64,000 bases of DNA from Arthrobacter sp. B1I2. Its GTDB lineage: Bacteria > Actinomycetota > Actinomycetes > Actinomycetales > Micrococcaceae. Position 1 is the first letter of the stretch, and every line of letters begins with the position of its first letter. Below, one piece after another: positions 7,799 through 62,613 of this stretch. The notes below the pieces were generated by a model. It saw only the letters and a list, made by a program, of their open reading frames with translations, did no database searches and was not told the DNA's origin. The position numbers and the translations under genes were made by a program. The stretch spans positions 806,001 to 870,000 of the forward strand of contig NZ_JAUSYC010000001.1 in the NCBI RefSeq assembly GCF_030816485.1. Reading direction: 5' to 3'.

Positions 7799-9007
7799 CT
7801 ATTTTGCGGGTGGCTTTTGAGGCCGGAATACTAGCTTCCCACAGCGCGCGCGTTCGCGGGGAACAGAACCGGGGCCGCCCTGGGCCCCCGGCACGGCGGC
7901 GTCCTTCGATCCCTCCAGCTGTGCCAGCGACAACCGGTACACACTCACGCCGCCGGGAAGCTCCACCGGACCGGCCGAACCCTGCCGCCGCAGCAGCGTT
8001 TCCGCCGCCAGAAGGCGCTGGTAGCTGGGCTGCTGCCCGCCGACGTCGGCCGCTGCCTTGGCGATGACCCGGAACCTGATGGCCGGGGCCAGGGCGCGCA
8101 ACGCCTCCTCCGGCAGGGTCAGCACGCTGCCCTCCCGCTCTGCCAGGGACGCGAAGGTGCTTTCCGCCACATCCTCCAGGTAGTCTGCGTCCAGCTGCAG
8201 GATGGCGGCGGTACGGGCCAGGGATTCGGCGACGCCGGGACCCAGGTTCTCCTCCAGGTGCGGGAGGACCTGCACCCGGGCCCGGGACCGTGCGAATGCG
8301 GGGTCGGCGTTGGTGGGATCGTGCCAGGGATCCAGTTCCTCCACCACGCAGATCTCCTCCGTGTCCGCCCTGCGCAGGCCAAGGAACGGGCGCAGCAGGA
8401 CACTGTTTCCGGCGCCTGACCGGGCAGGACGCATCCCCGCGAGGGAACGGGTGCCGGAGCCGCGGGCCAGGCCCAGCAGTACCTGCTCTGCCTGGTCGTC
8501 GAGGGTGTGGCCCAGCAGGATGGCCTCCGCGCCCTGGTCCGCGGCCGCGGCTTCGAGCGCGGCATGCCGGGCCTCCCGGGCGGCGGCTTCGGGGCCCATG
8601 CCGGCACCAGCCACCGTGACGGTGCGGATGTCCACGGGTGACAGGCCCAGTTCAGCCAGAACCTGGGCGGTACGGGCAGCAATTTCGCCCGATCCGTCCT
8701 GCAACTGGTGGTCCACCACCACCGCGCCCACAGTCAGCGGGTGGCCGCCGACGTGGCCGCGGCGCGCAAAATATGCGGCGACGGCGGCGAGGGCCAGGGA
8801 GTCGGGCCCGCCGCTGCACGCCACCACGACGTGCCGCGGATATCCGGCGTCGGCGAGCGCGTCTTGCAGCATCTTGCGCGCAGTCCCGACGACGGGCGCG
8901 AGCCTTCCGGGCCGGCGTCGTCCGCCGCGTCCCGGTGTTGAGGCCGATGTTGAGGCGGCGGACGGGACTTCAGGCATATGCGCGTCAGGCAACTCGGCGT
9001 CGGGCAA
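7799..9007 (-). CDS. tilS: tRNA(Ile)-lysidine synthase
   Basis: Up to 402 residues. TilS ligates lysine to C34 of the AUA-reading tRNA-Ile. The N-type ATP pyrophosphatase P-loop SGGPDS lies at about 65-70 with CSGGPDSLALAAVAAY around it, and the later LLGHTLDDQAEQVLLGLARG is a second family motif. The frame can start at a TTG at 9007, three bases after the upstream stop; an ATG at 8977 is an alternative that would drop ten low-complexity residues. The first 35 residues are Ala/Ser/Pro-rich and probably disordered. Confidence 0.95.
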   Translation of the reverse strand: MPDAELPDAHMPEVPSAASTSASTPGRGGRRRPGRLAPVVGTARKMLQDALADAGYPRHVVVACSGGPDSLALAAVAAYFARRGHVGGHPLTVGAVVVDHQLQDGSGEIAARTAQVLAELGLSPVDIRTVTVAGAGMGPEAAAREARHAALEAAAADQGAEAILLGHTLDDQAEQVLLGLARGSGTRSLAGMRPARSGAGNSVLLRPFLGLRRADTEEICVVEELDPWHDPTNADPAFARSRARVQVLPHLEENLGPGVAESLARTAAILQLDADYLEDVAESTFASLAEREGSVLTLPEEALRALAPAIRFRVIAKAAADVGGQQPSYQRLLAAETLLRRQGSAGPVELPGGVSVYRLSLAQLEGSKDAAVPGAQGGPGSVPRERARCGKLVFRPQKPPAK

Positions 9008-47567: not shown

Positions 47568-49838
47568 ATGCGGGAGCCGGGCACCAGCGAGCACACTTCG
47601 GAAGCGGATGCAGCCGCGGGCAATGGGGAAGTGGGCGCTGCGGAGCCGCCAGCGGAACTGGACGTCAATTTTGACGAGCAGTTCTTCGCGGCCAGGCCGA
47701 AGGCTTTGCGGCCCATCGCTCGCCGGCGCCAGTTCGTAGGCAGCAGGCCGTCTTTCGAGTTCGACGGGCGGAACGCGGCCTACGTGGACTGGCTCCGCAA
47801 CCAGGCCATGCTCGGGGACGCGAATACCTTGGCACGGCAGCTGTCCGGCCAGGCCAGCATGTGGCAAAACTCGTACGCCCATCCCAACCCGCGGGCCGCC
47901 GTCGAACGCGCCTCCGTGTGGTTCACCGCCTACCCGCTGTCCTTCATTACCCCCACCGGCCAGTCATTCCTTTCCGCCCTGGGCGATCCGGCCATGTGGA
48001 AAGCCTTCAGCGAAATCGGAATCCGCGGGATCCACACCGGGCCCGTGAAGCTTGCCGGCGGCATCAGCGGCTGGTCCCACACGCCCAGCGTGGACGGGCA
48101 CTTCGACCGCATCAGCATGGCGATCGATCCGGTCTTCGGCACCGAGGACGAGTTCCGCCGGATGTGCGAGGTGGCCGCTGAGCACGATGGCACCGTGATT
48201 GACGACATCGTCCCGGGCCACACCGGCAAGGGCGCGGACTTCCGCCTGGCCGAAATGAATTTCCGGGACTATCCCGGGATCTACCACATGATTGACATCC
48301 CGGAGGAGGACTGGCACCTGCTCCCCGACGTCCCCGAGGGGGCGGACTCGGTTAACCTCAGCCCCGACTCCGAGCAGGCACTGCAGAAGGCCGGCTACAT
48401 CATCGGCAGGCTGCAGCGCGTCATCTTCTACGAGCCCGGGGTGAAGGAGACCAACTGGAGCGCCACCCGGCCCATCGTGGACACCACCGGCAAGACCCGC
48501 CGCTGGGTCTACCTGCACTATTTCAAGGCAGGGCAGCCCTCCATTAACTGGCTGGACCCCACCTTCGCGGGAATGCGGCTGGTGGTGGGCGATGCCCTGC
48601 ATTCGCTGGTGGACCTGGGCACGGGAGCCCTGCGCCTGGATGCCAACGGGTTCCTGGGCGTGGAGAAGAGCGCCGAGGAACAGCCCGGATGGTCCGAAGG
48701 CCACCCGGTGTCCGAGGCCGCCAACCAGCTCATCGGGTCCATGATCCGCAAAGTGGGCGGGTTCTCCTTCCAGGAGCTGAACCTGACCATTGACGACATC
48801 AAGGCAACCTCCGAAGCAGGCCCGGACCTGTCCTACGACTTCATCACCAGGCCTGCTTACCACTACGCCCTGGTCACGGCCGATACCGAGTTCCTGCGGC
48901 TGACCCTCCGCCTGTCGATGGAAATCGGCGTGGACCAGGCCTCGCTGGTGCATGCACTGCAGAACCATGACGAGCTCACCTACGAGCTGCTGCACTTCGC
49001 CGCGGGGCACCGGGACGAGATCTTCGAGCTCAACGGCGAGGAACTCACAGGCGCGCAGCTGACCGAACAGGTCCAGCAGACCCTGCGGGAGCGGCTGACC
49101 GGTGAAAACGGGCCGTACAACGCCGTCTTCACCACCAACGGCATTGCCTGCACCTCGGTGAGCTTCATCATGGCCGCCCTGGGCATCAAGGACCCCTCCG
49201 CCGTAACCGCGGAGCAGGAAGTCCAGATCCGGGACGTCCACCTGCTGTTGGCGATGTACAACGCCCTGCAGCCGGGCGTCTTTGCCCTTTCCGGCTGGGA
49301 CCTCGCGGGCATCCTGGCCCTGGACCGGAGCAGCGTCCGGGAACTCACCTCGCAGGGCGATACCCGGTGGATCAACCGCGGCGCCCACGACCTCATGGGA
49401 ACCAGCCCGGACGCCACTACCTCGTCATCCGGGATGCCGAGGGCCCGCAGCCTGTACGGGCCGCTTCCGGAACAGCTGCAGGACCCCGACTCGTTTGCGC
49501 GCCGGCTGCAGCGGATCCTCACCGTGCGAGAAGAAAACGGGATCGCCACCGGTACGCTGCTTGACGTCCCGCAAGTTTCCAACCGTGGAGCACTGGTGCT
49601 GGTCAACCGGTTGAAGGACGGCGCCCTGCAGGTCACCGTGCTCAATTTCTCCGGACAGGACATCTCCGGCAGCATCCAGTCCAACGAGCTGCCGTCCGGC
49701 GCCAACGTCAGGGACCTGTTCAGCGGCGAAACCGTGGGGCAGGTGGACGACCTCCACAGTTTCTTCCTGGAGCTGCCGGCCTACGGCGGAACTGCCCTGT
49801 TGCTGACCGAAGCGCCGGAGCCGGACGCGGAAGCGTAA
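47568..49838 (+). CDS. GH13-family trehalose synthase/maltosyl-transferase-like enzyme
   Basis: 756 residues. The GH13 catalytic triad is intact: nucleophile Asp358 in [10 protein letters not shown], acid/base Glu403 in FSFQELNLT, and Asp468 in [10 protein letters not shown] long Pro/Ala-rich N-terminus precedes the barrel, and a beta domain follows about residue 620. Annotated homologues are usually named maltose alpha-D-glucosyltransferase; trehalose synthase, amylosucrase-like and GlgE-like activities are all possible from sequence alone. It is a single-gene transcript, and its 3' hairpin is shared with the convergent ROK gene. Confidence 0.85.
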
Positions 49839-49856: not shown

Positions 49857-49888
49857 GGGGTGGCACCGGGACAGCCCGGCGTCACCCC
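49857..49888. terminator. bidirectional terminator between the GH13 and ROK genes
   Basis: A 14-pair hairpin with one mismatch and one G-T pair closes an ACAG loop (arms 49857-49870 and 49875-49888). It overlaps the ROK stop codon and lies 18 bases beyond the GH13 stop. Confidence 0.6.
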
Positions 49889-51099
49889 GCGACGGCGCCT
49901 GCCAGCGTCTCTTCAATGACGGCCGGCGAGAGGACGTACTGGGTGACCAGCTGGCTCGCCCCGAGGACGGCCGCCTGGCCGCCTGCCCGGGAAACGTTGA
50001 TGCGAAGGTGCGACGTAGCCAGGGGCGGGGAGCGCCGGTACACCACCTCGCGGATACCGGCCACCAGGTGCTCCCCCGTCTCACCGACACTGCCGCCCAC
50101 CACAATCACGGAGGGATTGAGCAGGTTGACCACCGTGGCCAGCACCTCACCGACGTCCCGGCCGGCCTGCCGCAACGCCTGAATGGCCTGCAGGTTGCCG
50201 TCGGCGGCGAGCCGGAGCACGTCCGCGCCCTTTTCCACGTCCAGTCCCTGCTCCCGCATTGAACGCACGACGGCGGGCCCGGACGCCAGCGCCTCCAGGC
50301 ACCCATAGTTTCCACAGGCGCACAGGACATCCGCACCGCGCGCCACCTGGACGTGCCCCAGGTCGCCCGCCGTGCCGTTGGCGCCGCGCTGGAGTTCCCC
50401 GTTGCTGATGATGCCGGAGCCGATGCCGGTGGCCACCTTCACGAAGAAGAAGTTGTTGTGCTCGGGCCAATGGGCGGACTGCTCCCCCAGCGCCATGATG
50501 TTCACGTCGTTGTCCACCAGGACGTGGACGGGCAGGGACCGCTGGACGTAGCTGACCACGTCGAACCCGTCCCAGCCCGGCATGATGGGCGGCTTGACCG
50601 GCTTGCCGGTGTCGTGTTCCACCGGTCCGGGCAGTCCGATGCCAATCCCGGCCAGTTCCGCGACGCTTCGTCCGGTGGACGCCAGCAGCTCCTTGCCCTG
50701 CGCCACCACCTGGTCCAGCACCGCTTCCGGCCCGTCAGCCACCAGCTGCGCCAGCCGGTGTTCGGCCAGGATCTTCCCGCCGAGGTCCGTGACCGCGACG
50801 ATGACGTGTGTGGCCCCCACATCCACGGCCAACACCAGGCGGGCGGACGGGTTGAAGGCAAAGCGCGACGGCGGCCTGCCGCCACTGGAGAGCGCCTCGC
50901 CTGCGGGGCCCACCAGCCCGGACAGCATCAGCGCGTCGATCCGCGAGGCGACGGTGGAACGGGCCAGCCCCGTGCTCAGGGCAAGCTCGGCCCGCGTGCG
51001 GGCCCGGCCGTCACGCAGCAGCTGGAAAAGGTCCCCGGCCCGCGACAGGCTGCCGACGTCCGAGTCTTTTCCGGCCTGCCTGCCCGTCACTGAAGTCAT
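49882..51099 (-). CDS. ROK-family transcriptional regulator
   Basis: 405 residues. An N-terminal winged helix (about 15-70, LFQLLRDGRARTRAELALSTGLARSTVASRIDAL) is followed by a ROK sugar-kinase fold with the zinc motif CACGNYGCLE and GIGIGLPGPV. Such proteins (NagC/Mlc/XylR type) bind a sugar and release DNA. It diverges from the ten-gene sugar operon, and a palindrome matching its expected operator lies in the operon promoter. No Asp catalytic phosphoryl-transfer role is implied; it is a regulator. Confidence 0.93.
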   Translation of the reverse strand: MTSVTGRQAGKDSDVGSLSRAGDLFQLLRDGRARTRAELALSTGLARSTVASRIDALMLSGLVGPAGEALSSGGRPPSRFAFNPSARLVLAVDVGATHVIVAVTDLGGKILAEHRLAQLVADGPEAVLDQVVAQGKELLASTGRSVAELAGIGIGLPGPVEHDTGKPVKPPIMPGWDGFDVVSYVQRSLPVHVLVDNDVNIMALGEQSAHWPEHNNFFFVKVATGIGSGIISNGELQRGANGTAGDLGHVQVARGADVLCACGNYGCLEALASGPAVVRSMREQGLDVEKGADVLRLAADGNLQAIQALRQAGRDVGEVLATVVNLLNPSVIVVGGSVGETGEHLVAGIREVVYRRSPPLATSHLRINVSRAGGQAAVLGASQLVTQYVLSPAVIEETLAGAVAG

Positions 51100-51163: not shown

Positions 51164-51200
51164 ACTTTTGCTTGACGTGTGTCAAAAGTAGTTCTACGTT
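51164..51200 (+). promoter_or_regulatory. operon promoter with overlapping ROK-type operator
   Basis: TTGACG (51172-51177) and TACGTT (51195-51200) are separated by exactly 17 bases, a good sigma-70-type promoter reading into the sugar operon. ACTTTTG (51164-51170) and CAAAAGT (51183-51189) form a perfect 7-base inverted repeat with a 12-base spacer that covers the -35 and spacer. An inner TTGAC/GTCAA repeat is also present. The layout fits repression by the adjacent ROK protein. Confidence 0.7.
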
Positions 51201-51288
51201 GTGATTCAAGGCACATCCGCGGATCCGATGATAAACATCACCCGCAGTGATCCTCCCGGTAGTCCAGAGTCCGCTTACAAAGAGGTAA

Positions 51289-52371
51289 TTGAACTTGTCC
51301 CACCATGCAGCGCCAGCAGACCGGCCCCTCGGCGTCGGCATCCTCGGTGCCGGACCGGTCACCCAGGCCATCCACCTCCCGGCCCTGGCCCGCCTCCAGG
51401 ACTTCCTGGAGGTACGGCACATCATGGACGTGGACGCCGCCGTGGCCTCTTCGGTGGCGGCGCGCGTCGGTGCAACGTCGAGCACCAGCATGGACGCCCT
51501 GCTGCGCGATCAGGACGTGGACATCGTGGCAATCTGCAGCCCCCACCAGTTCCACGCCGACCAGGTCATCGCCGCCTGCAGGGCCGGCAAGAAAGCAGTC
51601 CTCTGCGAAAAGCCCTTCGCGATGAACGGGGAGGAAGCCGCGCGCATCTCGGCGGTCAGCACCGAAACCGGCGTGCCGATCGTCGTGGGGGCCATGCACA
51701 CGTTCGATCCCGCCTGGCTCGAGGCGGAACGGAACTGGGCTGACCTTCCGGAACACGTGCACACCATCCGCTCCTCCATCGTCCTGCCGCCCAACGCCCG
51801 CTTCGAGGACTTCGCCACGGAAATCGTCACCCGACCCGCCGCCGGCCAGCCCGACTACTCGGACATCGAGGTCATCAAAAGCGCCCTCCGGGGCGGGATC
51901 ATGGGCCTGGCCATCCACGACCTGCCCCTGGTCCGCCGGTTTGCCCCCGACTTCGCTGACATCGAAGTCCTCCAGGCGCTCCACGTCCGCCCGTTCGGGT
52001 ACGCAGTCTCGCTTCGCACCCCCACCCGCGCCATCGAACTGCGCGCCGTCATGAACAGCACCTGGAAGCCGGAATGGACCTTCGAGGCCATCGCCGACGA
52101 TTCCGCACTGCGTATCGACTTCACGCCGTCCTACGTCCAGGCAGGCTCCGCCGTCGCCACCTTCTCCCGCGGCAATGGCAGCGAAACCACCACGTTCGGA
52201 CCGTACGGCCACAACGGCTACGAGGGCGAGTGGCGCGAACTGGCGGAGCTGGCCAGGGGAACCCGCCAGGCGCCCTCCCCCCAAACCTTGATCGACGACC
52301 TCACCTTCGCCCTGGCGATCGCGGACGCAACGGTCCAAAACGCCGCCGACAATGCAGGAGTTTCGGCATGA
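51289..52371 (+). CDS. Gfo/Idh/MocA family oxidoreductase (first of three)
   Basis: 360 residues from a TTG at 51289 (AGAGG three bases upstream; TTG at 51295 is an alternative). The Rossmann motif GILGAGPV, the CSPHQFHADQV block and the catalytic-region lysine motif CEKPF are all present. The C-terminal domain is typical of the family. Substrate unknown. Its stop overlaps the next ATG by four bases, so it is coupled to a degenerate partner-like protein; a heteromer is possible. Confidence 0.88.
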   Translation: MNLSHHAAPADRPLGVGILGAGPVTQAIHLPALARLQDFLEVRHIMDVDAAVASSVAARVGATSSTSMDALLRDQDVDIVAICSPHQFHADQVIAACRAGKKAVLCEKPFAMNGEEAARISAVSTETGVPIVVGAMHTFDPAWLEAERNWADLPEHVHTIRSSIVLPPNARFEDFATEIVTRPAAGQPDYSDIEVIKSALRGGIMGLAIHDLPLVRRFAPDFADIEVLQALHVRPFGYAVSLRTPTRAIELRAVMNSTWKPEWTFEAIADDSALRIDFTPSYVQAGSAVATFSRGNGSETTTFGPYGHNGYEGEWRELAELARGTRQAPSPQTLIDDLTFALAIADATVQNAADNAGVSA

Positions 52372-53198
52372 GCGGCCAGTACACCGTGTGCGCAACCCCC
52401 GCCGCCCGGGAAGCCGGGGCGGTCACACAGACCATTGCTTCCCTGCCCGCAACCTTCGGCCCTGCGCCGGAGAACCAGCCGGGCGCCGCCGACGTGGTGG
52501 TGGTCGCGGGCGGACCCGGCTGGACCGCCGAGGCCCGTGACGCCGTCGCCGCAGGTGTCCGGGGCCTGGTCGTGGCCAACCCTGTTCCCGAGGACACCAG
52601 GGAACTGGCCGCCGCGGCAGACGCCGCAGGTACCGCCGTCGTCCTGGACCTCCGCTGGGCCTCCAACCCCGCGCTGGTGGGCGAAAGCACCGACCCCGAC
52701 GCCCGCGACGCCCTGCGCAGTGCCGTGGGCACTGCGTCACTGCTGGACAGTGTTGCGACGGCGGCTCCCGGCACCGACCCGCAGCGGCTCCTGGGCGAGC
52801 ACCTCGCCGCGCTGCTGGCGGTTACCGGACCGCTCGACGGCGGGCGCATCCTCCGCAGCGGCGCCGCCGGGTACACGGTGAGCGGCAGGCTGGCCAACGG
52901 CGCCCCGTTCACCGCCCAGGGCCTGCTGACCGCCGCCCGGCCCGCCGGCGTCGATATCCGCCTCTACACCACCGACGGCGGAGTGGCCGTCCAGGTTCCC
53001 GATCCGGACGCCGCCTGGCCGGCAGAAGTCCGGATCACCGGGGCCCACGGCGAACTCTTGCTTCCCACGCTTTATGAATCCGCCCACCGGTCTGCGTGGC
53101 GGCGCCTGAAGGACCATCTTGGCGCCGGCACTCGGCCGGACGATCTGGCCGGGTTCGCCCGGCTGACCGACCTCTACGCAACCCTCGCTGCCACGTAA
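52368..53198 (+). CDS. uncharacterised protein, degenerate Gfo/Idh/MocA-like partner
   Basis: 276 residues, Ala-rich. The N-terminal half has a Rossmann-like strand-helix pattern (ADVVVVAGGPGW) but no GxGxxG nucleotide motif and no EKP lysine. The C-terminal half (GRLANGAPFTAQGLLT, ITGAHGELLLPTLYESAHR, WRRLKDHLGAG, RLTDLYATLA) resembles the substrate domain of Gfo/Idh/MocA enzymes. I infer a non-catalytic partner of the upstream oxidoreductase, with which it is coupled by ATGA. It could also be an unrelated lineage-specific protein. No family name is certain. Confidence 0.7.
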   Translation: MSGQYTVCATPAAREAGAVTQTIASLPATFGPAPENQPGAADVVVVAGGPGWTAEARDAVAAGVRGLVVANPVPEDTRELAAAADAAGTAVVLDLRWASNPALVGESTDPDARDALRSAVGTASLLDSVATAAPGTDPQRLLGEHLAALLAVTGPLDGGRILRSGAAGYTVSGRLANGAPFTAQGLLTAARPAGVDIRLYTTDGGVAVQVPDPDAAWPAEVRITGAHGELLLPTLYESAHRSAWRRLKDHLGAGTRPDDLAGFARLTDLYATLAAT

Positions 53199-53310
53199 CC
53201 AACCCACCGATACGCAACCGAACAAGCAGTCCAGTCCCACCTTCACTCTCAACGATGAGCAGGACCGCACCAACGGCGCTTAGCGCAGGACGGTCCCGAA
53301 AGGACACATC

Positions 53311-54636
53311 ATGAACGCAACTCCTGAACAGCGCCGCTCCTTCTCACGGCGCGGTTTCCTTGGCCTGACAGCTGCCGCTGCTTCCGTGCCGCTGCTTGCC
53401 GCTTGCGGCGGCGGCTCCGCCAGCCAGGGCGGCGGCGGAGGTACGGGCGGCACCGTCAAGTTCTGGGATATGCCCTGGGCAACGCCCGCGTACAACGACG
53501 CCGCCAAGGGCATCGCGGAAGGTTTCTCGGGTGCCAACGGTGCCAAGGCGAGCTACCAGATCATCCAGTGGAACAACTTCTACCAGACCTTCTCCTCCGC
53601 GATCGCCTCAAAGACGGGCCCGGCTGTCTCCACGGGCGGCGGCTTCCAGGCGTTCCAGTTCGAGCAGCAGGGCCAGATCGCGTATGCGGACAAAGTGATC
53701 GAGAAGCTGAAGTCGAACGGCCAGTTCGACGACTTCCTCCCTGGCGTGCTGGATCCGTTCAAGTCGGACAAGGGCTACGTGGCGGTCCCCTGGCAGCTGG
53801 ACATGCGCGTCTTCTGGTACCGCAAGTCGCTGTTTGAGAAGGCAAACGTCGCCCTGCCCACGGACTGGCCGTCTCTGCTGGAAGCAGGCAAGGCCCTGAA
53901 GAAGGTGGGCGCGTTCGGCTTCACTACCGGCGCGGGCGCGGGCAACAACTACGCCAACCACTCCATGATCATGATGATGGTCAATAACGGCGGCGGCGTC
54001 TTCAACAAGGACGGCGAGCTGGACCTGCTGAACGACCGCAACGTCGAGGCCATGGAGTTCGTCCTGGAGCTTGTGTCCAACGGCATCGTCGATCCCGCCG
54101 CGGTCAGCTACACCACGGACAACATGTCGGCGCAGTGGAAGGACGGGAAGGCAGGCTACGGCCTGTTCCAGGTGAACGTCCCGCAGCGCGTTGGCGACAC
54201 CTCGGGCGACCTCCTGGTGGCTGATCCCATCAAGGGTCCGCACGGGGACAAGGCCACCATCGTCTTCCCCAACAACATCATGATGTACACCAACACCCCG
54301 TCCCAGGAGGCGTCGGAGGAATTCCTGGTGTACTACCTGGGCCAGCTCAAGCAGCTGTGGCAGAAGAAGCTGATGTCCGCCCTCCCGGTCTTCAAGTCCA
54401 TCACGGAGATCCCCGAGTTCGCGGACGACCCCAACAACGTCAAGATCGTCAAGGACTGGCAGCCCATCGCCAAGACCTTCGCCGCCCAGGGCAGCAAGCT
54501 CAACGCCAACCTCGCCGCCCTCGACGGCGGACAGGCCCTGAACCAGTTCAGCCAGACAATCATCACCGGGAAGGCAGACGCCAAGACAGCGCTGCAGACC
54601 TTCCAGTCCGGCCTCGAATCCGTCCTGAAGAAGTAA
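53311..54636 (+). CDS. ABC transporter sugar-binding lipoprotein
   Basis: 441 residues. The start MNATPEQRRSFSRRGFLGL carries a Tat twin-arginine motif (SRRGFLG), and a lipobox LLAAC puts the lipidated cysteine at 32, so it is an exported lipoprotein. The rest is a family-1 extracellular solute-binding protein (VKFWDMPWATPAYNDAAKGIAEGF, GYVAVPWQLDMRVFWYRKSLFEKANV). It delivers a sugar or glycoside to the two permeases that follow. The 112-base gap before it holds only a ribosome site (GAAAGGAC). Confidence 0.93.
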   Translation: MNATPEQRRSFSRRGFLGLTAAAASVPLLAACGGGSASQGGGGGTGGTVKFWDMPWATPAYNDAAKGIAEGFSGANGAKASYQIIQWNNFYQTFSSAIASKTGPAVSTGGGFQAFQFEQQGQIAYADKVIEKLKSNGQFDDFLPGVLDPFKSDKGYVAVPWQLDMRVFWYRKSLFEKANVALPTDWPSLLEAGKALKKVGAFGFTTGAGAGNNYANHSMIMMMVNNGGGVFNKDGELDLLNDRNVEAMEFVLELVSNGIVDPAAVSYTTDNMSAQWKDGKAGYGLFQVNVPQRVGDTSGDLLVADPIKGPHGDKATIVFPNNIMMYTNTPSQEASEEFLVYYLGQLKQLWQKKLMSALPVFKSITEIPEFADDPNNVKIVKDWQPIAKTFAAQGSKLNANLAALDGGQALNQFSQTIITGKADAKTALQTFQSGLESVLKK

Positions 54637-54645
54637 GCGCCCGCC

Positions 54646-55608
54646 ATGTCCTCCACCACTGCCCAGTCCGGGCTGTCCCGGGCCCGCCGCGGGGTTGCCC
54701 CCGGCGGGTCCGGGACCGGCGCCGGCAAACGCAAGAGCAAGCTCTCCGCGCAGACCACCAGGACGTTCTTCTGGCTCCTGCTCCCCTCCGTGGTCCTGCT
54801 TGTCCTGATCCACGGCTACCCGTTGATCTACGCGGCCGTCCAGGCCACCCACGACGGAAACCTGCTCCAGACCGGCAACTTCGTGGGCGGAGAGAACTTC
54901 GCCACTGTCCTGACCTCCCCGGCGTTCTGGAAAGCCGCCCAGTTCACGCTCTGGTTCACCATCGTGGGCGTCTTCGGATCCTGGCTCGTCGGGCTTGGCC
55001 TGGCCCTGCTCCTGCGCACCAGGATCCCGGGCGCCGGCACCTTCAAGGTCCTGCTGCTCCTGCCCTGGGTGGTGCCGATCGTGGTGTCCTCCACCGCCTG
55101 GAACTGGCTGGTGGCCACCCCGGACAGCCTTATCCCGTCGCTGTTCCGCAACCTCGGCATGGGCACCCCGCTGTTCCTGGCGGACCCCAACCTCGCCTCC
55201 ATCACCGTCATGGTGTTCAAGGTCTGGGTCAGCTTCCCCTTCATGATGATGATGATCTCCGCCGCCCTGGCGTCGGTGGACACCACCGTTTATGAGGCGG
55301 CCAGCATGGACGGGGCCAGCCGCTGGCAGCAGTTCACCCAAATCACGCTGCCGCTGATTGCCCGCTCCACCTACATCAGCTGGATCCTGATGACCATCTT
55401 CTGCGTCAACGACTTCCCCACCATCTACCTGCTCACTGGTGGTGGACCGGTCAACGCCACCACCTCCCTGGTGGTCCTGGCCTACCGGACCGTCTTCCAG
55501 GACTTCGCCACCGGCCCCGGCGTGGCCATCGCCTTCCTCATGACCATGACCCTGGTGGTCATCTCGGTCATCCTGTACCGCCAGATCCGAAAGTCGAGCG
55601 TCGAATAA
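54646..55608 (+). CDS. ABC transporter sugar permease (MalF type)
   Basis: 320 residues, six membrane helices, with the inner-membrane permease EAA-like loop EAASMDGASRWQQFTQITLPLI that contacts the ATPase. The N-terminus is Ser/Gly-rich and cytoplasmic. It pairs with the next permease; their ORFs overlap by one base. No ATP-binding gene is in the operon, so a shared MsiK-type ATPase elsewhere is likely, as known in actinobacteria. Confidence 0.93.
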   Translation: MSSTTAQSGLSRARRGVAPGGSGTGAGKRKSKLSAQTTRTFFWLLLPSVVLLVLIHGYPLIYAAVQATHDGNLLQTGNFVGGENFATVLTSPAFWKAAQFTLWFTIVGVFGSWLVGLGLALLLRTRIPGAGTFKVLLLLPWVVPIVVSSTAWNWLVATPDSLIPSLFRNLGMGTPLFLADPNLASITVMVFKVWVSFPFMMMMISAALASVDTTVYEAASMDGASRWQQFTQITLPLIARSTYISWILMTIFCVNDFPTIYLLTGGGPVNATTSLVVLAYRTVFQDFATGPGVAIAFLMTMTLVVISVILYRQIRKSSVE

Positions 55609-56498
55609 TGAGCGCAGTACTGCACGCCCATCCCGAATCCGGCCCCACGCTCGGCATCGAGGCCGGCAAACGCCGCCCGGTCCTCTCCGAGGCCGGCCAG
55701 CGCGGCCGCTGGTGGCGCTTCGCCGCGATCCTCATCATCACCGGGATCGTGCTGGTTCCCATCATGGTCACCGTGCTGCTGGCTGTCACGCCCGGGCCCA
55801 ACAGCACCGCCACCGGCCTGACCTTGGAGAACCTCAGCAACGTGTTCTCCAAGACGCTCGCCGCCACATGGCTGAAGAACAGCCTGGTCACCACGCTCTC
55901 CACCGTTGTGGTCTCAGTGGCTGTGGCCGCGCCCGCAGGCTACGTCCTCTCCCGGGGCCGCAGCAAGGCGGTTTCCGGATACTCGCTGCTGCTGTTCGTC
56001 ATGCAGTCCCTGCCCATCATCACCTCGGTGGTGCCGCTGTTCATCCTGTTCGCCGGCATGGGCCTGGTGGACAACCTCCTGGGCCTGACCATCATCTACG
56101 TCGGCTCCACCATGACGGTTGCCACCTGGATGATGGCAGCGTACTTCGACTCCATCCCCATCAGCCTGGAGGAGGCATCCTGGATTGACGGCTGCTCCGT
56201 TTTCGGGTCCTTCACCAAGGTGGTCCTCCGGAATTCCCTCCCGGGCGTCCTCTCCACCGCGATCTTTGCCTTCCTCCTGGCCTGGAACGACTACCTGGTG
56301 GCCATCGTGTTCCTGCGCTCGAATGAAATCTTCACCCTTCCCATGGGCGTGCAGTCCTTCTTCCAGCAGAATGCGACGGACTGGACCTCCGTCATGGCCC
56401 TGGCCGTGGTCATGATGCTCCCGCCCGTCATCGTCTTCGCCACCCTGAACAAGTACTTCAGCGTCGGCGGCATCGGCGGCTCGCTCGCCGGCCGCTGA
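55608..56498 (+). CDS. ABC transporter sugar permease (MalG type)
   Basis: 296 residues, six helices, with the EAA loop EEASWIDGCSVFGSFTKVVLRNSLPGV and the typical C-terminus FATLNKYFSVGGIGGSLAGR. It completes the membrane part of the importer. It begins on the last base of the upstream stop, so translation is coupled. Confidence 0.93.
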   Translation: MSAVLHAHPESGPTLGIEAGKRRPVLSEAGQRGRWWRFAAILIITGIVLVPIMVTVLLAVTPGPNSTATGLTLENLSNVFSKTLAATWLKNSLVTTLSTVVVSVAVAAPAGYVLSRGRSKAVSGYSLLLFVMQSLPIITSVVPLFILFAGMGLVDNLLGLTIIYVGSTMTVATWMMAAYFDSIPISLEEASWIDGCSVFGSFTKVVLRNSLPGVLSTAIFAFLLAWNDYLVAIVFLRSNEIFTLPMGVQSFFQQNATDWTSVMALAVVMMLPPVIVFATLNKYFSVGGIGGSLAGR

Positions 56499-56541
56499 CC
56501 CCAGCCCTCAACGATCCACGACAGAACCGCTAAGGAAACCC

Positions 56542-57288
56542 ATGTCCTACTCACTGCAGCTTTACACCGTCCGCAACGCCATCTCCGAGGATCTTCCGGG
56601 GACCATCAAGAGGGTGGCGGAGATCGGCTTCACCCAGGTTGAGCCGTACAACTTTGTGGCCACGGCCAAGGAACTGGGCGCGGCCCTGAAGGAGAACGGC
56701 CTCACTGCACCGTCCGGCCACGCGCCCCTGATGAGCCAGGACCAGGACGAGATCTTCGCGGCGGCCAAGGAGCTGGGCATCACCACCGTCATCGATCCGT
56801 TCCTGCCCGCCGAGCACTGGCAGAAGGCCGAGGACATCCAGGCCACGGCGGAGAAGCTTAATGCCGCCGCGAAAAAAGGCGCGGAGTACGGCATCCGCGT
56901 GGGCTACCACAACCACGCCTGGGAACTGGAGTCCACCGTCGAGGGACGCACGGCCCTGGAGTACTTCGAGTCCCTCCTGGATCCGGAACTGGTCCTGGAA
57001 GTTGATACGTACTGGGCAGCCGTCGGCGGCCAGGACCCCGTGGAGCTCCTGACCAGGCTGGGCGACCGCGTAAAATTCATCCACATCAAGGATGGCCCCC
57101 TGAACAAGGACAACAAGGCCCAGCAGCCGGCCGGCCAGGGCAAGGTGCCGGTCATGGACGTCATCGCCGCGGCAAAGTCGCTGGAGGTGGGCGTGGTGGA
57201 GTTCGATGACTACGCCGGCGACATCTTCGAGGGCATCAACGAGAGCCTGTCCTTCCTCAACGCTGCAGGCGAAGGAGTCAAGGCATGA
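56542..57288 (+). CDS. sugar phosphate isomerase/epimerase (xylose isomerase-like TIM barrel)
   Basis: 248 residues of the AP_endonuc_2/xylose-isomerase-like barrel, with IGFTQVEPYNF near the start, the metal-ligand region RVGYHNHAWELE, LVLEVDTYWAAVGG and VKFIHIKDGP. These enzymes isomerise, epimerise or dehydrate keto-sugars with a divalent metal. Substrate unknown. The stop overlaps the next ATG (ATGA), coupling it to the second oxidoreductase. Confidence 0.88.
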   Translation: MSYSLQLYTVRNAISEDLPGTIKRVAEIGFTQVEPYNFVATAKELGAALKENGLTAPSGHAPLMSQDQDEIFAAAKELGITTVIDPFLPAEHWQKAEDIQATAEKLNAAAKKGAEYGIRVGYHNHAWELESTVEGRTALEYFESLLDPELVLEVDTYWAAVGGQDPVELLTRLGDRVKFIHIKDGPLNKDNKAQQPAGQGKVPVMDVIAAAKSLEVGVVEFDDYAGDIFEGINESLSFLNAAGEGVKA

Positions 57289-58403
57289 GCACCACAGCTT
57301 CCCGCAGGGGCCCGGTGGGCGTTGGCGTCATCGGCGCCGGCGTGATCAGCAAGCAGTACCTGGACAACCTCACCGCGTTCCCGGACCTGAAAGTCCATGT
57401 CATCGCAGACCTGTTCGAGGACGCCGCCGAGGCCCGCGCCAAGGAATACGGCGTCCCGGAGTGGGGCGGGGTGGACAAGGCACTGAACCATCCCGACGTC
57501 GAAATCATCGTCAACCTCACCATTCCAGCCGCCCACGTGGAGGTGGCCACCGCCGCCGTCAACGCCGGCAAGCACGTGTGGACGGAAAAGCCGTTTTCGC
57601 TGGACCGCGAATCCGGGCTGGGCCTGCTCAAGACGGCCGACGCCGCCGGCATCCGCCTGGGCTGCGCCCCGGACACCTTCCTTGGCGCCGGCCTGCAGAC
57701 CGCGCTGCGGCTCATCCGGCGCGGCGACATCGGCACCCCCCTGACCGCCATGACCATGTTCCAGACCCCAGGCCCGGAGGCCTGGCACCCCAACCCGGCC
57801 TTCCTCTTCCAGCACGGCGCCGGCCCGTTGTTCGACATGGGTCCGTACTACCTCACCACCCTGGTCCAGGCCTTCGGTTCCATCCGCAAGGTGGCCGCCG
57901 TCGGTTCCAAGGCCAAGGACGTGCGGGTCATCGGCTCGGGACCCAAGGCCGGCGAGGAGTTCACCGTGGAGGTGCCCACCCACGTCTCCGCGATGGCGCA
58001 GTTCGAGTCCGGCGCCTCCTCGCACAGCGTTTTCTCCTTCGAATCCCCCCGGACCCGCATGGGCTTCGTGGAAATCACCGGCACCGAAGCCACCATCTCG
58101 CTCCCGGACCCCAACTACTTCACAGGCGACATCAAGCTCTGGCGTGCCGGCGACGAGGACTGGACCACCGTTCCAGCCACCGGGCCCGCCAACGGCCGCG
58201 GCATGGGTGTGCTGGACATGGCACGCTCCCTGCGGGCAGGAACAGCCCACAGGGCCACCGGCGAGCTCGCCTACCACGTCCTGGACACGATGGTCTCCAT
58301 CTCGGAGTCCATCGGCTCCGGCACGTTCGTCGACGTCGAAAGCTCGGCCCCGGCATCCCCGGCCCTCCCCGAGGACTGGGCCCCGGAAACCGCCACCCTC
58401 TAA
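57285..58403 (+). CDS. Gfo/Idh/MocA family oxidoreductase (second of three)
   Basis: 372 residues. The nucleotide motif GVIGAGVISKQYL, NLTIPAAHVEVATAAVNAGKHVWTEKPFSLD with the EKP lysine, and the C-terminal domain FVEITGTEATISLPDPNYFTGDI are all typical. It is coupled to the upstream barrel enzyme. Together they suggest a sugar is oxidised and then isomerised, but the order and substrate are not shown. Confidence 0.92.
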   Translation: MSTTASRRGPVGVGVIGAGVISKQYLDNLTAFPDLKVHVIADLFEDAAEARAKEYGVPEWGGVDKALNHPDVEIIVNLTIPAAHVEVATAAVNAGKHVWTEKPFSLDRESGLGLLKTADAAGIRLGCAPDTFLGAGLQTALRLIRRGDIGTPLTAMTMFQTPGPEAWHPNPAFLFQHGAGPLFDMGPYYLTTLVQAFGSIRKVAAVGSKAKDVRVIGSGPKAGEEFTVEVPTHVSAMAQFESGASSHSVFSFESPRTRMGFVEITGTEATISLPDPNYFTGDIKLWRAGDEDWTTVPATGPANGRGMGVLDMARSLRAGTAHRATGELAYHVLDTMVSISESIGSGTFVDVESSAPASPALPEDWAPETATL

Positions 58404-58459
58404 TCCGGCAATTAATCCAGCACGTAGTCCAGCAAGCAGGAAGCACGCAGGAACGCATC

Positions 58460-59638
58460 ATGACCGCACCCGCACACCCGTCCGAACCTCCGGCCGATCC
58501 GGAGGCCTCCCGCCCGCTGGGCGTGGCCGCCATCGGCTACGCCTTCATGGGCAAGGCCCACTCCAACGCGTGGCGGAATGTGGCCAGCTTCTTCGACGTC
58601 CCGGCCTTCGAACAGAAAGTCCTCGTTGGCCGGGACGCCGGCGCCGTTGCCGGGGCTGCAGCCAAATACGGCTGGGCCGAATCAGCCACGGACTGGCGCA
58701 CGGTGATCACCCGCGATGACATCGACATCGTGGACATCTGCGCCCCGGGCTGGATGCACGCGGAGATCGCCGTCGCCGCCCTCGAGGCCGGCAAGCACGT
58801 CCTGGTGGAAAAACCGCTGGCCAACACCCTGGCCGAGGCCGAACTCATGACCGCCGCCGCGGCCAAGGCCCGGGCCAACGGCGTGAAGTCGATGATCGGC
58901 TTCAACTACCGCCGCGTCCCAGCCCTGGCCCTGGCCCGGGAACTGATCGCCGAGGGCCGCCTGGGCACGGTCCGGCACGTCCGCGCCGCTTACCTGCAGG
59001 ACTGGCTCGCCGACGCCCAGGCCCCCATGACCTGGCGGCTGCGGAAGGAAACCGCGGGCTCCGGCGCGCTCGGGGACATCGCCAGCCACGCCATCGACCA
59101 GGTCCTATTCCTCCTGGGTGACCAGGTCACCGAGGTCAGCGGCCGCCTCAACACCTTCGTGCCCCGCCGCCCCGGCGCGGACGGCACGGAAGACGTAACG
59201 GTCGACGACGCCGCCTGGGCCACGCTGTCCCTCACCTCCGGGGCCATCGCCTCAGTCGAAGTCTCCCGGGTGGCCACCGGCCGGAAGAACTCCCTCCAGA
59301 TCGAGGTCTATGGCGACAAGGGCAGCATCCTCTTCGACCTGGAAAACCTGAACGAACTCGGATTCCTGGACGCCACCGCCCCGGTCCGTGAGCAGGGTTT
59401 CCGCCGGATCCTGGTCAATGAACCCGAGCACCCCTACCTGGACGCGTGGTGGCCGCAGGGCCACATCATCGGCTGGGAACACACGTTCACCCACCAGGTC
59501 CGCGACTTCCTGCTGGCCATCAAGGACGGAACCCAGCCCTCGCCGTCGTTCGAAGAAGGACTGAACGTCCAGTACGTCCTGGACGCCGTGGAGGAATCCG
59601 CCGCCAACAAAAGCACCCTCACCGTCGTCCGCCACTAA
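58460..59638 (+). CDS. Gfo/Idh/MocA oxidoreductase, levoglucosan-dehydrogenase-like (third of three)
   Basis: 392 residues from the ATG at 58460. The pattern GYAFMGKAHSNAWRN, HVLVEKPLAN, FNYRRVPALALAREL, AAYLQDWLAD and SGALGDIASHAIDQVLFL resembles, from memory, the group containing bacterial levoglucosan dehydrogenase and glucoside 3-dehydrogenases, which oxidise carbon 3 of a glycoside with NAD. This likeness is inference; an ordinary inositol-type dehydrogenase remains possible. The 24 N-terminal residues are Pro/Ala-rich. The 56-base gap before it shows no terminator. Confidence 0.88.
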   Translation: MTAPAHPSEPPADPEASRPLGVAAIGYAFMGKAHSNAWRNVASFFDVPAFEQKVLVGRDAGAVAGAAAKYGWAESATDWRTVITRDDIDIVDICAPGWMHAEIAVAALEAGKHVLVEKPLANTLAEAELMTAAAAKARANGVKSMIGFNYRRVPALALARELIAEGRLGTVRHVRAAYLQDWLADAQAPMTWRLRKETAGSGALGDIASHAIDQVLFLLGDQVTEVSGRLNTFVPRRPGADGTEDVTVDDAAWATLSLTSGAIASVEVSRVATGRKNSLQIEVYGDKGSILFDLENLNELGFLDATAPVREQGFRRILVNEPEHPYLDAWWPQGHIIGWEHTFTHQVRDFLLAIKDGTQPSPSFEEGLNVQYVLDAVEESAANKSTLTVVRH

Positions 59639-59676
59639 CCTCCGCCGCTGACCGCCGCCACTAGCCAAGGAATCAC

Positions 59677-60678
59677 ATGCCCCGCCCCTTCACCCTGTTC
59701 ACCGGCCAGTGGGCCGATCTCCCCTTCGAAGAAGTCGCCAAGCTCGCCTCCGGCTGGGGCTACGACGGCCTGGAAATCGCCGTCTCCGGCGACCACCTGG
59801 ACGCCTGGCGCTGGGACGAACCCGGCTACGTCGAGTCCAAACTCGAAATACTGGACAAGTACAACCTCAAAGTCTGGGCCATCTCCAACCACCTCAAGGG
59901 CCAGGCCGTCTGCGATGACCCCATCGACTTCCGCCACCAGGCCATCGTCGGTTCCAAAGTCTGGGGCGACGGCGACCCCGAAGGCGTCCGCACCCGTGCC
60001 GCGGAGGAAATGAAGCACACCGCACGGCTGGCCAAAGCACTCGGCGTGGACACCGTCGTCGGGTTCACCGGCTCCTCCATCTGGCAGTACGTGGCCATGT
60101 TCCCGCCCGTCCCCGAAAAGGTCATCGATGCCGGCTACCAGGACTTCGCGGACCGCTGGAACCCCATCCTGGACGTCTTCGACGAATGCGGCGTCCGCTT
60201 CGCCCACGAAGTCCACCCCTCCGAGATCGCCTACGACTACTGGACCACCGTCCGCACCCTCGAAGCCATCGGCCACCGCGAAGCCTTCGGGCTGAACTGG
60301 GACCCGTCCCACATGATGTGGCAGGGCATCGACCCCGTCTCCTTCATCTGGGACTTCAAGGACCGGATCTACCACGTGGACTGCAAAGACACCAAGATCC
60401 GCCAGACCGGCCGCAACACCGTCCTGGGCTCCCACCTGCCCTGGGGCGACCCCCGCCGCGGCTGGGACTTCGTCTCCGCCGGACGCGGCGACGTCCCCTG
60501 GGAAGCCTCCTTCCGCGCCCTTGCGGCCATCGGCTACAACGGCCCTATCAGCGTTGAATGGGAAGACGCCGGCATGGACCGTCTCCACGGCGCTCCCGAA
60601 GCCCTCGCCGCCCTGAAGAAGTACGACTTCCCCGCCTCCCAGACCAGCTTCGACGCCGCCTTCAGCAGCAAGGACTAG
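59677..60678 (+). CDS. sugar phosphate isomerase/epimerase (second TIM barrel)
   Basis: 333 residues, longer than the first barrel enzyme. The start PRPFTLFTGQWADLPFEEVAKLASGWGYDGLEIAVSGDHLD, the middle FAHEVHPSEIAYD and NWDPSHMMWQGIDP, and the metal-site YHVDCKDTKI and GPISVEWEDAGMD blocks fit the metal-dependent barrel family that in related operons works on 3-keto-sugars by elimination or epimerisation. Substrate unknown. The two barrels are not close paralogues by eye. Confidence 0.88.
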   Translation: MPRPFTLFTGQWADLPFEEVAKLASGWGYDGLEIAVSGDHLDAWRWDEPGYVESKLEILDKYNLKVWAISNHLKGQAVCDDPIDFRHQAIVGSKVWGDGDPEGVRTRAAEEMKHTARLAKALGVDTVVGFTGSSIWQYVAMFPPVPEKVIDAGYQDFADRWNPILDVFDECGVRFAHEVHPSEIAYDYWTTVRTLEAIGHREAFGLNWDPSHMMWQGIDPVSFIWDFKDRIYHVDCKDTKIRQTGRNTVLGSHLPWGDPRRGWDFVSAGRGDVPWEASFRALAAIGYNGPISVEWEDAGMDRLHGAPEALAALKKYDFPASQTSFDAAFSSKD

Positions 60679-60689
60679 GAGGTCCCGAC

Positions 60690-61586
60690 GTGGTCCGCAC
60701 CCTTCAACCAGGCCAATGCTGCGAGGTGCGGACCGCGTCAGTCTCCGGGGAAACTTCGCTCGTCTTCCACACAGAGGACATGCTGGTCGAGGCACCCAAC
60801 TGGACCCTCGACGGGCGGGCGCTCATCCTTAACGGGAATGGCAGGTTGTGGAGGTTCGAACTGGAGAGCGGCACCCTCAGCGAGATTCCGCTGTCCGGCG
60901 CCCCTGACCTCAACAATGACCACGTCCTGGACCCGGACGGCACCGCCATCTTCCTCTCCGGCGATGACGGCCACATCTACCGCGCACCCCTGGCGGGTGG
61001 GGAGGCCACCCGGATCACGGACCACGATGGATCCTTCCATTTCCTTCATGGAGTCAGTCCTGATGGCCGCAGGCTGGCCTACGTGGACATCCCGGAGGGG
61101 GATTTCGGCCGGCCGGGCCGGCTCCGGACCATCCCGGCGGGCGGCGGCCCGACAAAAAGCGTGGAGGTGGGCCAGGGGCACTGTGACGGGCCGGAATTTT
61201 CTCCGGACGGAACCTGGCTGTACCTGAACACGGAGTCCTTCAGCACGGCTCCCGGCCATGCCCAGCTTGCCCGTGTCCGACCGGACGGCAGCCAGTTCGA
61301 GCGGCTGGTGGACAGTGCAACCGTCGACTGGTTCCCGCACCTGTCCCCCGACGGCCGCCTGGCCAGCTACGTCCGCTTTCCCGCTGGAACCCGGGGCCAC
61401 CCCGCGGACCTGCCGGTCGACGTCGTCCTCGTCTCCACAAGCGGCTGGACCGCAGAACTGCACACCTGGCAGGTGTTCGGCGGCCAAGGCACCCTCAACG
61501 TCAACAGCTGGTCGCCTGATTCGGAACGGTTCGCCTACGTGGCGTACCCGATGGCCCCGGCAACGGCCGAGAGCGGCATGGCCTGA
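60690..61586 (+). CDS. PD40 beta-propeller (TolB-like) protein
   Basis: 298 residues from the GTG at 60690, preceded by AGGAGG with a seven-base spacer. Repeated propeller motifs of the type SPDGxxLAYV recur (HGVSPDGRRLAYV, EFSPDGTWLYLN, HLSPDGRLASYV, SWSPDSERFAYV). There is no signal peptide, so it is cytosolic. Homologues are called TolB-like or oligogalacturonate-lyase-like; an enzymatic lyase or a sugar-sensing role are both possible. It ends the operon, seven bases before the convergent glycosyltransferase stop. Confidence 0.8.
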   Translation: MVRTLQPGQCCEVRTASVSGETSLVFHTEDMLVEAPNWTLDGRALILNGNGRLWRFELESGTLSEIPLSGAPDLNNDHVLDPDGTAIFLSGDDGHIYRAPLAGGEATRITDHDGSFHFLHGVSPDGRRLAYVDIPEGDFGRPGRLRTIPAGGGPTKSVEVGQGHCDGPEFSPDGTWLYLNTESFSTAPGHAQLARVRPDGSQFERLVDSATVDWFPHLSPDGRLASYVRFPAGTRGHPADLPVDVVLVSTSGWTAELHTWQVFGGQGTLNVNSWSPDSERFAYVAYPMAPATAESGMA

Positions 61587-61593
61587 CCTGCCC

Positions 61594-62463
61594 CTACGCC
61601 GGCTCTTCCTTCAGGACGACGTCGTACGCCTCCACCTGCCGGTCCGTCACGGTCGTGGGCGACTCCAGGTGGACCGCGCCGGCGGGCAGGATGCCCGCCC
61701 CGCCGTACCGTTCCATCACCTGCCACTGGGCCACCACGTCCTCGCCGGCGTGGTCGGCCGGAAGGCCTGTCCAGAAACGGAACCCGCCGGCGTCGTTCAG
61801 CGCCTCCCTGCGGTACAGCACGCAGCCGCCCAGCCATGCCACGTGGTAGGGCAGCCATTCGCCGGGCTGCAGCGACATCTCGGCACTGAGGTGGGCCAGG
61901 TTGGCGGCACTGTGCAGCGGCCAGCGTTCGAATCCCGGGGTGTCCGGGCGGATGCGTTCGGGAGCCACCGGCCCGTCCCAGGCCTGGAAGGTGGCCGTTT
62001 GTTCCGGCCTGCGGTCATTGAGGAAGGACAGCCCCTGCGGAGCCATTCCCACAAAGCCGCACTGAAGCTCGTCCAGTGCCCGGCTCAGCCGCTCCACGGC
62101 ACCCGGCTCCAGCCAGACGTCGTCGTCCAAAAAGAGGCATTGGTCCGCCGTGGACCGGTCCAGCAGGAACTGGCGGTGTTCGGCCAGTCCGCGCCGCGGC
62201 AGGTGCCGGAGCAGCGTGACCGGCCGGCCCTGTGCCTCAAGCACCCGCACCATCGCTGCGGCAGCGGGGTGCTCCCAGGCGGGCCGGCCCGATGATTGGT
62301 CGCTGACCACGACGGCGAACGCGGGTTCGGACTGTGCGGCAAGTCCTGCGAGGGTGACGGCGAGCTCGGCCGGCCGGTTGCACGTGGGCACCAGGACATC
62401 CACCGCTACCTTGTCCGGCTGTTCCTGCTGCCGCGCCCACTGCTCCGAAGATCTCCTGCCCAC
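61594..62463 (-). CDS. glycosyltransferase family 2 protein
   Basis: 289 residues from the GTG at 62463, preceded by AGGAAGGTGG. The GT-A fold start VDVLVPTCNRPAELAVTLAGLAAQ and the metal-binding CLFLDDDVWLEPGAV are present, as is the acceptor-side block HVAWLGGCVLYRREALNDAGGFRFW. Donor, acceptor and polymer are unknown; no transporter or polymerase gene is beside it. An open frame upstream to 62610 looks non-coding. Confidence 0.85.
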   Translation of the reverse strand: MGRRSSEQWARQQEQPDKVAVDVLVPTCNRPAELAVTLAGLAAQSEPAFAVVVSDQSSGRPAWEHPAAAAMVRVLEAQGRPVTLLRHLPRRGLAEHRQFLLDRSTADQCLFLDDDVWLEPGAVERLSRALDELQCGFVGMAPQGLSFLNDRRPEQTATFQAWDGPVAPERIRPDTPGFERWPLHSAANLAHLSAEMSLQPGEWLPYHVAWLGGCVLYRREALNDAGGFRFWTGLPADHAGEDVVAQWQVMERYGGAGILPAGAVHLESPTTVTDRQVEAYDVVLKEEPA

Positions 62464-62613
62464 GGTCCACCTTCCTGGCGTTGGGATTGGGGATTTGCTT
62501 CCGACTGTTCTGTACCCAGCCGGACGGGATGTATTCGCCCTGCCAGCCGGGCGGCACTGGTCCATGGGGGGTTCACCGGGGGTGGGCCGGCGGGTCAGCT
62601 GGAACGGCAAAGA

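Follow-up and report, generated by a model that had tools for sequence, protein, structure and literature searches.

Our analysis indicates that an operon of Arthrobacter sp. B1I2, lying in a 64,000-nucleotide stretch of contig NZ_JAUSYC010000001.1 (positions 806,001 to 870,000; hereafter, the window), probably encodes a ROK-repressed, non-hydrolytic route of glycoside cleavage with a two-subunit entry dehydrogenase. Its ten plus-strand genes (g1 to g10, 51289-61586; Table 1) diverge from the ROK gene and encode three intact Gfo/Idh/MocA dehydrogenases (g1, g7, and g8, here GfoA, GfoB, and GfoC), a degenerate Gfo paralog (g2), a sugar importer (g3 to g5), two TIM barrels (g6 and g9), and a PD40 protein (g10). 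A first-pass annotation of the same DNA had described such a ten-gene, same-strand operon facing a ROK regulator; all ten genes and their families were confirmed, and the Pfam families bear out the three Gfo/Idh/MocA proteins, the two xylose-isomerase-like barrels, and the PD40 protein that it had listed.

The cleavage of glycosides without hydrolysis has been elucidated in only a few organisms, and the operon offers a testable actinobacterial version of it that is common in the genus and has swappable importers. The cleavage chemistry itself is already known; the new part is the g1-g2 pair, a near-obligate combination of an active Gfo protein with an inactive one. Publications are cited below by PubMed Central (PMC) identifier; one of them raises a comparable route in Arthrobacter, as speculation only (PMC8873060).

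In the pathway that we favor, the g3-g5 lipoprotein/permease importer, energized by an ATPase encoded elsewhere, would take up a glycoside that is probably a glucoside or gluco-oligosaccharide. Oxidation at C3 of the sugar by a Gfo dehydrogenase would follow, with GfoA and its inactive partner g2 acting on the imported substrate and GfoB carrying out the C3 oxidation of core substrates. The metal-dependent barrel g6 would then expel the aglycone by beta-elimination, yielding 2-hydroxy-3-keto-glucal, which g9 would hydrate to 3-keto-glucose. Finally, GfoC would reduce 3-keto-glucose to glucose, thereby recycling NADH.

The paired Gfo proteins g1 and g2

While g2 matches nothing in the Pfam or NCBIfam scans, a profile comparison with hhalign relates it to the g1 family (probability 96, E 4.8e-9), only weakly to g8 (14.7), and not to g7 (0.4); an earlier g2-g1 comparison on narrow alignments had been weak (probability 11). 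The predicted model of g2 (predicted local distance difference test score [pLDDT], 85.9; predicted template modeling score, 0.85) has a Gfo fold, and the 50 PDB entries listed for it are all dehydrogenases, reductases, or oxidoreductases (E from 2.3e-10; template modeling score by query length, 0.55-0.69; 8-18% identity), including scyllo-inositol and levoglucosan dehydrogenases (12-14% identity) and glucose-fructose oxidoreductase. The alignment of g2 with g1 begins near residue 73, and the opening segment of the nucleotide-binding domain is absent; the short N terminus of g2 has no GxG, and the EKP lysine is replaced, with EKP aligning with ANP. The first-pass view of this fourth protein as a degenerate partner is thus upheld, g2 being most like g1 and having neither GxG loop nor catalytic lysine. 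In g1 itself, G20, G22, K108, and H210 are present in 38 of 38 homologs.

The g2 gene evolves under purifying selection, with ratios of nonsynonymous to synonymous substitution rates (dN/dS) of 0.24-0.31 against five of six relatives and 0.53 against the sixth (L053); for g1, four comparable relatives give 0.12-0.15. Among 396 genomes of the order, g2 occurs at 15 places in 13 genomes, each time directly behind g1, and g1 occurs at 20 places in 17 genomes of 10 genera. A g2-like open reading frame (ORF) follows g1 at all 20 of these places, 17 of them firm and 3 looser: where g2 was not called (five places), an ORF of about 255-295 residues lies behind g1 in each case. In two of the five (L089 and L090), a broader g2 profile scores this partner ORF at 72 and 73 bits versus 32 and 33 bits for the neighboring g1.

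We propose that g1 and g2 form a two-subunit glycoside 3-dehydrogenase, in which g1 would be catalytic and g2 a non-catalytic partner. A bolder version, which we advance tentatively and with slightly more doubt than confidence, is that the pair is the founding case of Gfo/Idh/MocA dehydrogenases built as hetero-oligomers. On this view, an active subunit and a truncated paralog devoid of cofactor, retained side by side in some ten genera of a single actinobacterial order, would serve as the entry enzyme of glycoside cleavage, and the dead subunit would either adapt the pocket to bulky aglycones or oligosaccharides or dock the eliminase. Among the papers listed by the literature search, none is announced as describing an inactive Gfo subunit paired with another. 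If g1-g2 is a true enzyme complex, unnamed ORFs beside Gfo genes merit re-inspection in many genomes.

Alternatively, g2 may descend from a Gfo enzyme but act separately in the cytoplasm, as a sensor or scaffold rather than as a partner of g1, a role consistent with its missing catalytic residues and with a constraint weaker than that on g1. We regard this as unlikely, however: the overlap of the two genes and their adjacency throughout the order sample favor a complex, and the oligomer of Pl-scyllo-IDH is held mainly by its C-terminal sheet (PMC5969746), the portion retained in g2.

Outside the genus, the order sample has 11 g2 places, and at 8 of them the g3-g5 importer family lies in the same cluster. 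Further loci show other surroundings. In L040 (1106-16573), the neighbors of g1-g2 are a peptide-type ATP-binding cassette (ABC) transporter (identified by eye), a GH3 enzyme, and sulfatases, a cluster that may encode a route for a sulfated glycoside. A more distant barrel with weak g6-profile matches (22-32 bits) lies ahead of g1 in L079, L081, L083, and L084, and in the last three of these its reading frame was seen. Between two g1-g2 copies in L083, there is also an ORF (7897-8727) starting MTFKPLFDGKTLAGWK, which presumably resembles DUF1080 proteins.

Probable elimination and hydration steps and proposed roles of GfoB and GfoC

In AtOGE of Agrobacterium tumefaciens (8bvk), the metal is bound by His132, Asp163, His189, and, weakly, Glu233, and His134 is catalytic (PMC10628242, Bitter et al.). 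H123, D155, and H181 of g6 align with the first three ligands and H125 with the catalytic histidine; all four residues are present in 28 of 28 homologs, and E220 is present in 27 of 28. E220 is probably the Glu233 equivalent, an assignment made indirectly because the 8bvk alignment stops earlier, through a Glu of 8tcs with which E220 aligns (8tcs and 8tcd, both matched by g6, being presumably Bacteroides barrels). By these residues, g6 is a 3-keto-glycoside eliminase-like protein.

For g9, the PDB holds only two relatives at E 1e-5, 2zds ("putative DNA-binding protein") and 8ro4. The latter was deposited as a 2-hydroxy-3-keto-glucal hydratase, from its entry title we infer that it is AtHYD, and it matches g9 over the whole barrel (residues 17-327, 123 bits). 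E178, D209, H233, and E294, the likely metal site, are present in 27 of 27 homologs of g9, and E178, D209, and E294 are identical in 8ro4. SCO6571 (2zds) is named once in PMC6629963, for a neighboring variant.

Together with the three intact Gfo proteins, these matches of g6 and g9 support the keto-glycoside route suggested at first pass. The A. tumefaciens 3-keto-O-glucoside operon (AtOGE, AtHYD, and a Gfo reductase; PMC10628242) likewise combines eliminase-like and hydratase-like barrels with a Gfo oxidoreductase, and its eliminase residues are kept here. The present operon differs in that it has no flavin glycoside dehydrogenase and instead carries three Gfo proteins, a degenerate Gfo partner, a dedicated importer, and a ROK regulator.

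All three Gfo proteins keep a lysine and a histidine or tyrosine. K102, D184, and Y189 of g7 and K118, D206, and H210 of g8 are each present in 26 of 26 homologs, the latter three forming the K-D-H triad described for inositol dehydrogenases (PMC5969746). Since g6 adjoins g7 in 29 of 29 loci (L011-L039) and g8-like genes adjoin g9-like genes in several other loci, this adjacency suggests an oxidation-elimination unit (g6/g7) and a hydration-reduction unit (g8/g9).

The same toolkit of oxidation, elimination, hydration, and reduction has been demonstrated for levoglucosan (PMC7676230), and both lgdA-lgdB1-lgdB2-lgdC of Bacillus smithii (PMC7676230) and the LgdB3/B4 variants of Paenarthrobacter (PMC10066097) resemble the operon in having two Gfo and two PF01261 proteins for four steps. 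The operon might then encode LgdA, LgdB1, LgdB2/B3, and LgdC under a different regulator. GfoC does fall within the neighborhood of levoglucosan dehydrogenase (LGDH; 6a3f, 280 bits), and levoglucosan users are found in the same bacterial group, the species of one of them, P. histidinolovorans, having another strain with this operon (PMC10066097). By the curated LGDH cut-off of 650 bits (NF052479), however, neither g8 (339.5 bits), g1 (54.9), nor g7 (44.8) passes, nor does any gene in the whole genome (best, 363.9), whereas those users have LGDHs with 96.7 and 97.9% identity to the characterized one (PMC10066097). The operon also differs from the lgd genes by its extra GfoA-g2 pair and importer; an importer and three dehydrogenases are more than levoglucosan needs, and we consider this reading very improbable.

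Equally improbable, in our estimate, is an inositol or polyol catabolic operon with IolG- and IolE-like genes, an identity for the dehydrogenases that the first-pass annotation had named as fatal to its own proposal. Weak NCBIfam matches to IolG (g1, g7, and g8) and IolE (g6 and g9) do exist, but all lie far under the cut-offs, with 87.2, 66.4, and 121.3 bits, respectively, of the 355 required for IolG (TIGR04380) and 47-52 bits of the 290 required for IolE. No operon gene falls into another inositol-pathway family (Pfam, all ten genes; NCBIfam, all but g10), and g3 is 78% identical to a protein titled a sugar transporter.

A C-glycoside deglycosylation operon of the Dgp/CGD type strikes us as more improbable still. 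Soil bacteria are reported to have such enzymes (PMC8563793), g1 and g8 both match DgpA (7xr9), and the two-subunit C-glycoside lyases CGD and PuCGE (PMC8563793, PMC13273386) also have a second polypeptide that aids a 3-keto-route enzyme. There, however, it is the lyase that is two-part, whereas here we propose a dehydrogenase with its own degenerate paralog. C-C cleavage requires an alpha/beta dimer (PMC13273386), and no gene for a small CGD beta subunit is among the ten. Neither g6 nor g9 matches a CGD entry (7DNN, 7EXB, and 7EXZ, named in PMC10628242) at E 1e-5 in a search by sequence only, and OGE and CGE share a fold without sequence similarity (PMC10628242). The levoglucosan, inositol, and C-glycoside identities are set aside.

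GfoB has a 43% relative in its own genome, which sits behind a ThuA gene. The thuAB genes serve a 3-keto route for trehalose and sucrose; the operon differs from them in that the Pfam scan found no ThuA (PF06283) among its ten genes. The relative belongs to a paralogous cluster (L009, C1 ~984-993 kb) comprising a LacI-like gene (by eye), a binding protein, two permeases, a GfoC-like protein (55-58%), a TIM2-like protein (70%), ThuA, and a ThuB-like Gfo protein (43% to g7).

Several observations count against non-hydrolytic cleavage with a paired entry enzyme. The nearest relatives with solved structures, 4h3v for g8 and 2zds for g9, are uncharacterized, as stated for 4h3v in PMC5969746, and the characterized enzymes are only distantly similar. 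H233 of g9 aligns with an alanine in 8ro4, which has a histidine two columns further on, and the metal site of g9 is less sure for that reason. With a glycine at the Asp position, g1 has the lysine and histidine but not the aspartate of the K-D-H triad, and it is split by a frameshift, through either decay or sequencing error, in 2 of the 16 whole operons listed below (L042 and L053). At the three looser places of the order sample, the broad g2 profile separates the partner ORF poorly from g1: 31.6 versus 23.9 bits in L091, 21.5 versus 24.5 in L093, and nothing above 1e-2 versus 23.9 in L092, whose ORF was recognized through 35% identity over 250 residues to that of L091. As these scores are no better than or about equal to those of g1, they establish only the Gfo kinship of a separate ORF of 250-290 residues. 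In a phylum-wide sample of 396 genomes, g1 turned up in its own genome and in one other (G471, of another class), where no g2 is visible by the g1-like gene, itself truncated, on a 6.3-kb contig of mixed content. Finally, g1-g2 also occur without the g3-g5 importer, in L040, L084, L059 (with ThuA and GfoC), and L085 (with a peptide-type transporter, by eye).

A common core, its regulator, and exchangeable importers

A scan of named genomes, which is not a census, gave at least 19 loci with g2. In 16 of the 19 listed, the ROK gene and g1 to g9 stand in identical order, and two more end at a contig edge; the one deviating layout is that of Amnibacterium flavum, the other 18 loci being titled Arthrobacter, Pseudarthrobacter, or Paenarthrobacter. 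In 13 of the 16 whole operons, the PD40 gene lies downstream in the same orientation, and one of these 13 copies is split (L056). Across 59 relatives (own genome counted), g2 is present in 20, every one of the same genus, and 40 have a relative of g7 at E 1e-60. Of 37 same-genus genomes, 34 have a g7 that is at least 69% identical.

We fetched 22 same-genus g7 loci (L011-L032), picked for spread rather than at random. The divergent ROK gene adjoins the operon in 20, its place being taken in L022 and L028 by a LacI-like gene (named by eye). The module g1-g2-g3-g4-g5 is present in 8 and missing from 14. In three (L020, L023, and L032), an alternative cassette combines a g6/g7 pair of 64-66%/72% identity with a distant importer (24-34%), and L028 has a different importer and a GH30 enzyme ahead of g6-g7. 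In ten, ROK and g6 have no importer gene between them; these include L018, where an 84-residue remnant of g5 shows that the importer module was probably lost at least once. The core is ROK, g6, g7, g8, and g9; it is common in the genus and combines with interchangeable importers, a pattern that speaks against one exotic substrate. The uncommon glycoside that the first-pass annotation had deduced from the number of dehydrogenases and the missing glycosidase is not supported, because an eliminase replaces the glycosidase in this chemistry and because the third dehydrogenase travels with the optional importer module.

The gap between ROK and g1 contains a perfect inverted repeat, ACTTTTG-N12-CAAAAGT, which is probably the ROK site. 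Position 51164, which the first-pass annotation had taken as the start of the operon, is not a gene start but the first base of this palindrome. The repeat has a single exact copy in the 4.68-Mb genome, and 0.04 copies would be expected in the window at up to two mismatches; four other operator-like places in the genome each have two mismatches, versus six for a reversed control. Of the 18 listed loci L041-L058, 17 carry it unchanged, and L057 has one base changed. In L022, where g1-g7 stand separately with the LacI-like gene, an operator site (18948-18973) lies just ahead of g8-g9. Because the operator is conserved in the gap, unique in the genome, and present ahead of g8-g9 in L022, ROK is probably a local repressor of the core. 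The proposed promoter, overlapping the operator, has a -35-like TTGACG inside the repeat and a weak -10 element, and the promoter scan, which gave three sites (0.9 expected; two within genes on the plus strand), reports none there.

A Tat-lipoprotein ABC importer without an ATPase among the operon genes was likewise recognized correctly at first pass, with g3 bearing a twin-arginine motif (SRRGFLGLT) and a lipobox (LAAC), both seen by eye. Outside the operon, the genome has one gene that exceeds the NF008653 (PRK11650, which we take to be UgpC) cut-off, with 473 versus 432 bits, and the ATPase is for this reason probably supplied in trans. The nearest solved binding protein to g3 is 4r2f (765 bits, 78% identity), titled "sugar transporter ACHL_0255 from Arthrobacter chlorophenolicus A6 ... 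with bound", with the ligand word cut off; the ligand is presumably laminarihexaose. Only this title was used, the lower PDB ranks being disregarded, as the g3 model has a pLDDT of 38 (14 close sequences). Given the 4r2f relation, the GH30 gene by g6-g7 in L028, and a GH1-like gene (by eye) near g1-g5 and g7 in L080, our best guess at the substrate, about as likely right as wrong, is a beta-glucoside or gluco-oligosaccharide.

Operon layout and neighboring genes

The coding sequences are closely spaced, g1/g2 and g6/g7 overlapping by 4 bp each and g4/g5 by 1 bp, with remaining gaps of 9-112 bp. The scan for terminator-like sites gave seven, every one on the opposite strand and at chance level (6.5 expected). 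Translation of g1 probably starts at TTG 51295 rather than at the listed 51289, because CTTGTC behind GAGGT is conserved across loci.

Table 1. Positions of the operon genes, the ROK gene, and the control elements within the window
Feature	Position	Strand	Match or remark
ROK-family transcriptional regulator	49882..51099	-	PF00480, 212 bits
Probable operator, perfect inverted repeat ACTTTTG-N12-CAAAAGT	51164..51189		conserved in ROK-g1 gap
Proposed promoter: TTGACG 51172-51177, 17 bases, TACGTT 51195-51200	51172..51200	+	overlaps operator; conserved in alignment
g1 (GfoA), intact Gfo/Idh/MocA dehydrogenase	51295..52371 (ORF listed from TTG 51289)	+	PF01408, 83 bits
g2, degenerate Gfo paralog	52368..53198	+	no Pfam/NCBIfam match
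g3, Tat-exported lipoprotein, sugar-binding protein	53311..54636	+	PF01547 (SBP_bac_1), 84 bits
g4, ABC permease	54646..55608	+	PF00528 (BPD_transp_1), 38 bits
g5, ABC permease	55608..56498	+	PF00528 (BPD_transp_1), 61 bits
g6, 3-keto-glycoside eliminase-like TIM barrel	56542..57288	+	AP_endonuc_2; 8tcs 80 bits, AtOGE 8bvk 75 bits
g7 (GfoB), intact Gfo/Idh/MocA dehydrogenase, DMGPYY type	57285..58403	+	PF01408 + PF22725
g8 (GfoC), intact Gfo/Idh/MocA dehydrogenase	58460..59638	+	4h3v 478 bits, LGDH 6a3f 280 bits
g9, 2-hydroxy-3-keto-glucal hydratase-like TIM barrel	59677..60678	+	AP_endonuc_2; 2zds 553 bits, 8ro4 123 bits
g10, PD40 beta-propeller protein	60693..61586	+	PF07676 36 bits; 2ojh (Atu1656) 168 bits

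Convergent with the ROK gene lies a gene for a 756-residue GH13-like protein (47568-49838, plus strand; PF00128, 25.5 bits, cut-off 22). It is found at the same place in six fetched loci (L021, L023, L024, and L041-L043; 91-96% identity) and not in the others and is, for that reason, probably outside the operon. On the other side, a gene for a GT2-family glycosyltransferase (61594-62610, minus strand) converges on the operon end and occupies the same place in eight fetched loci.

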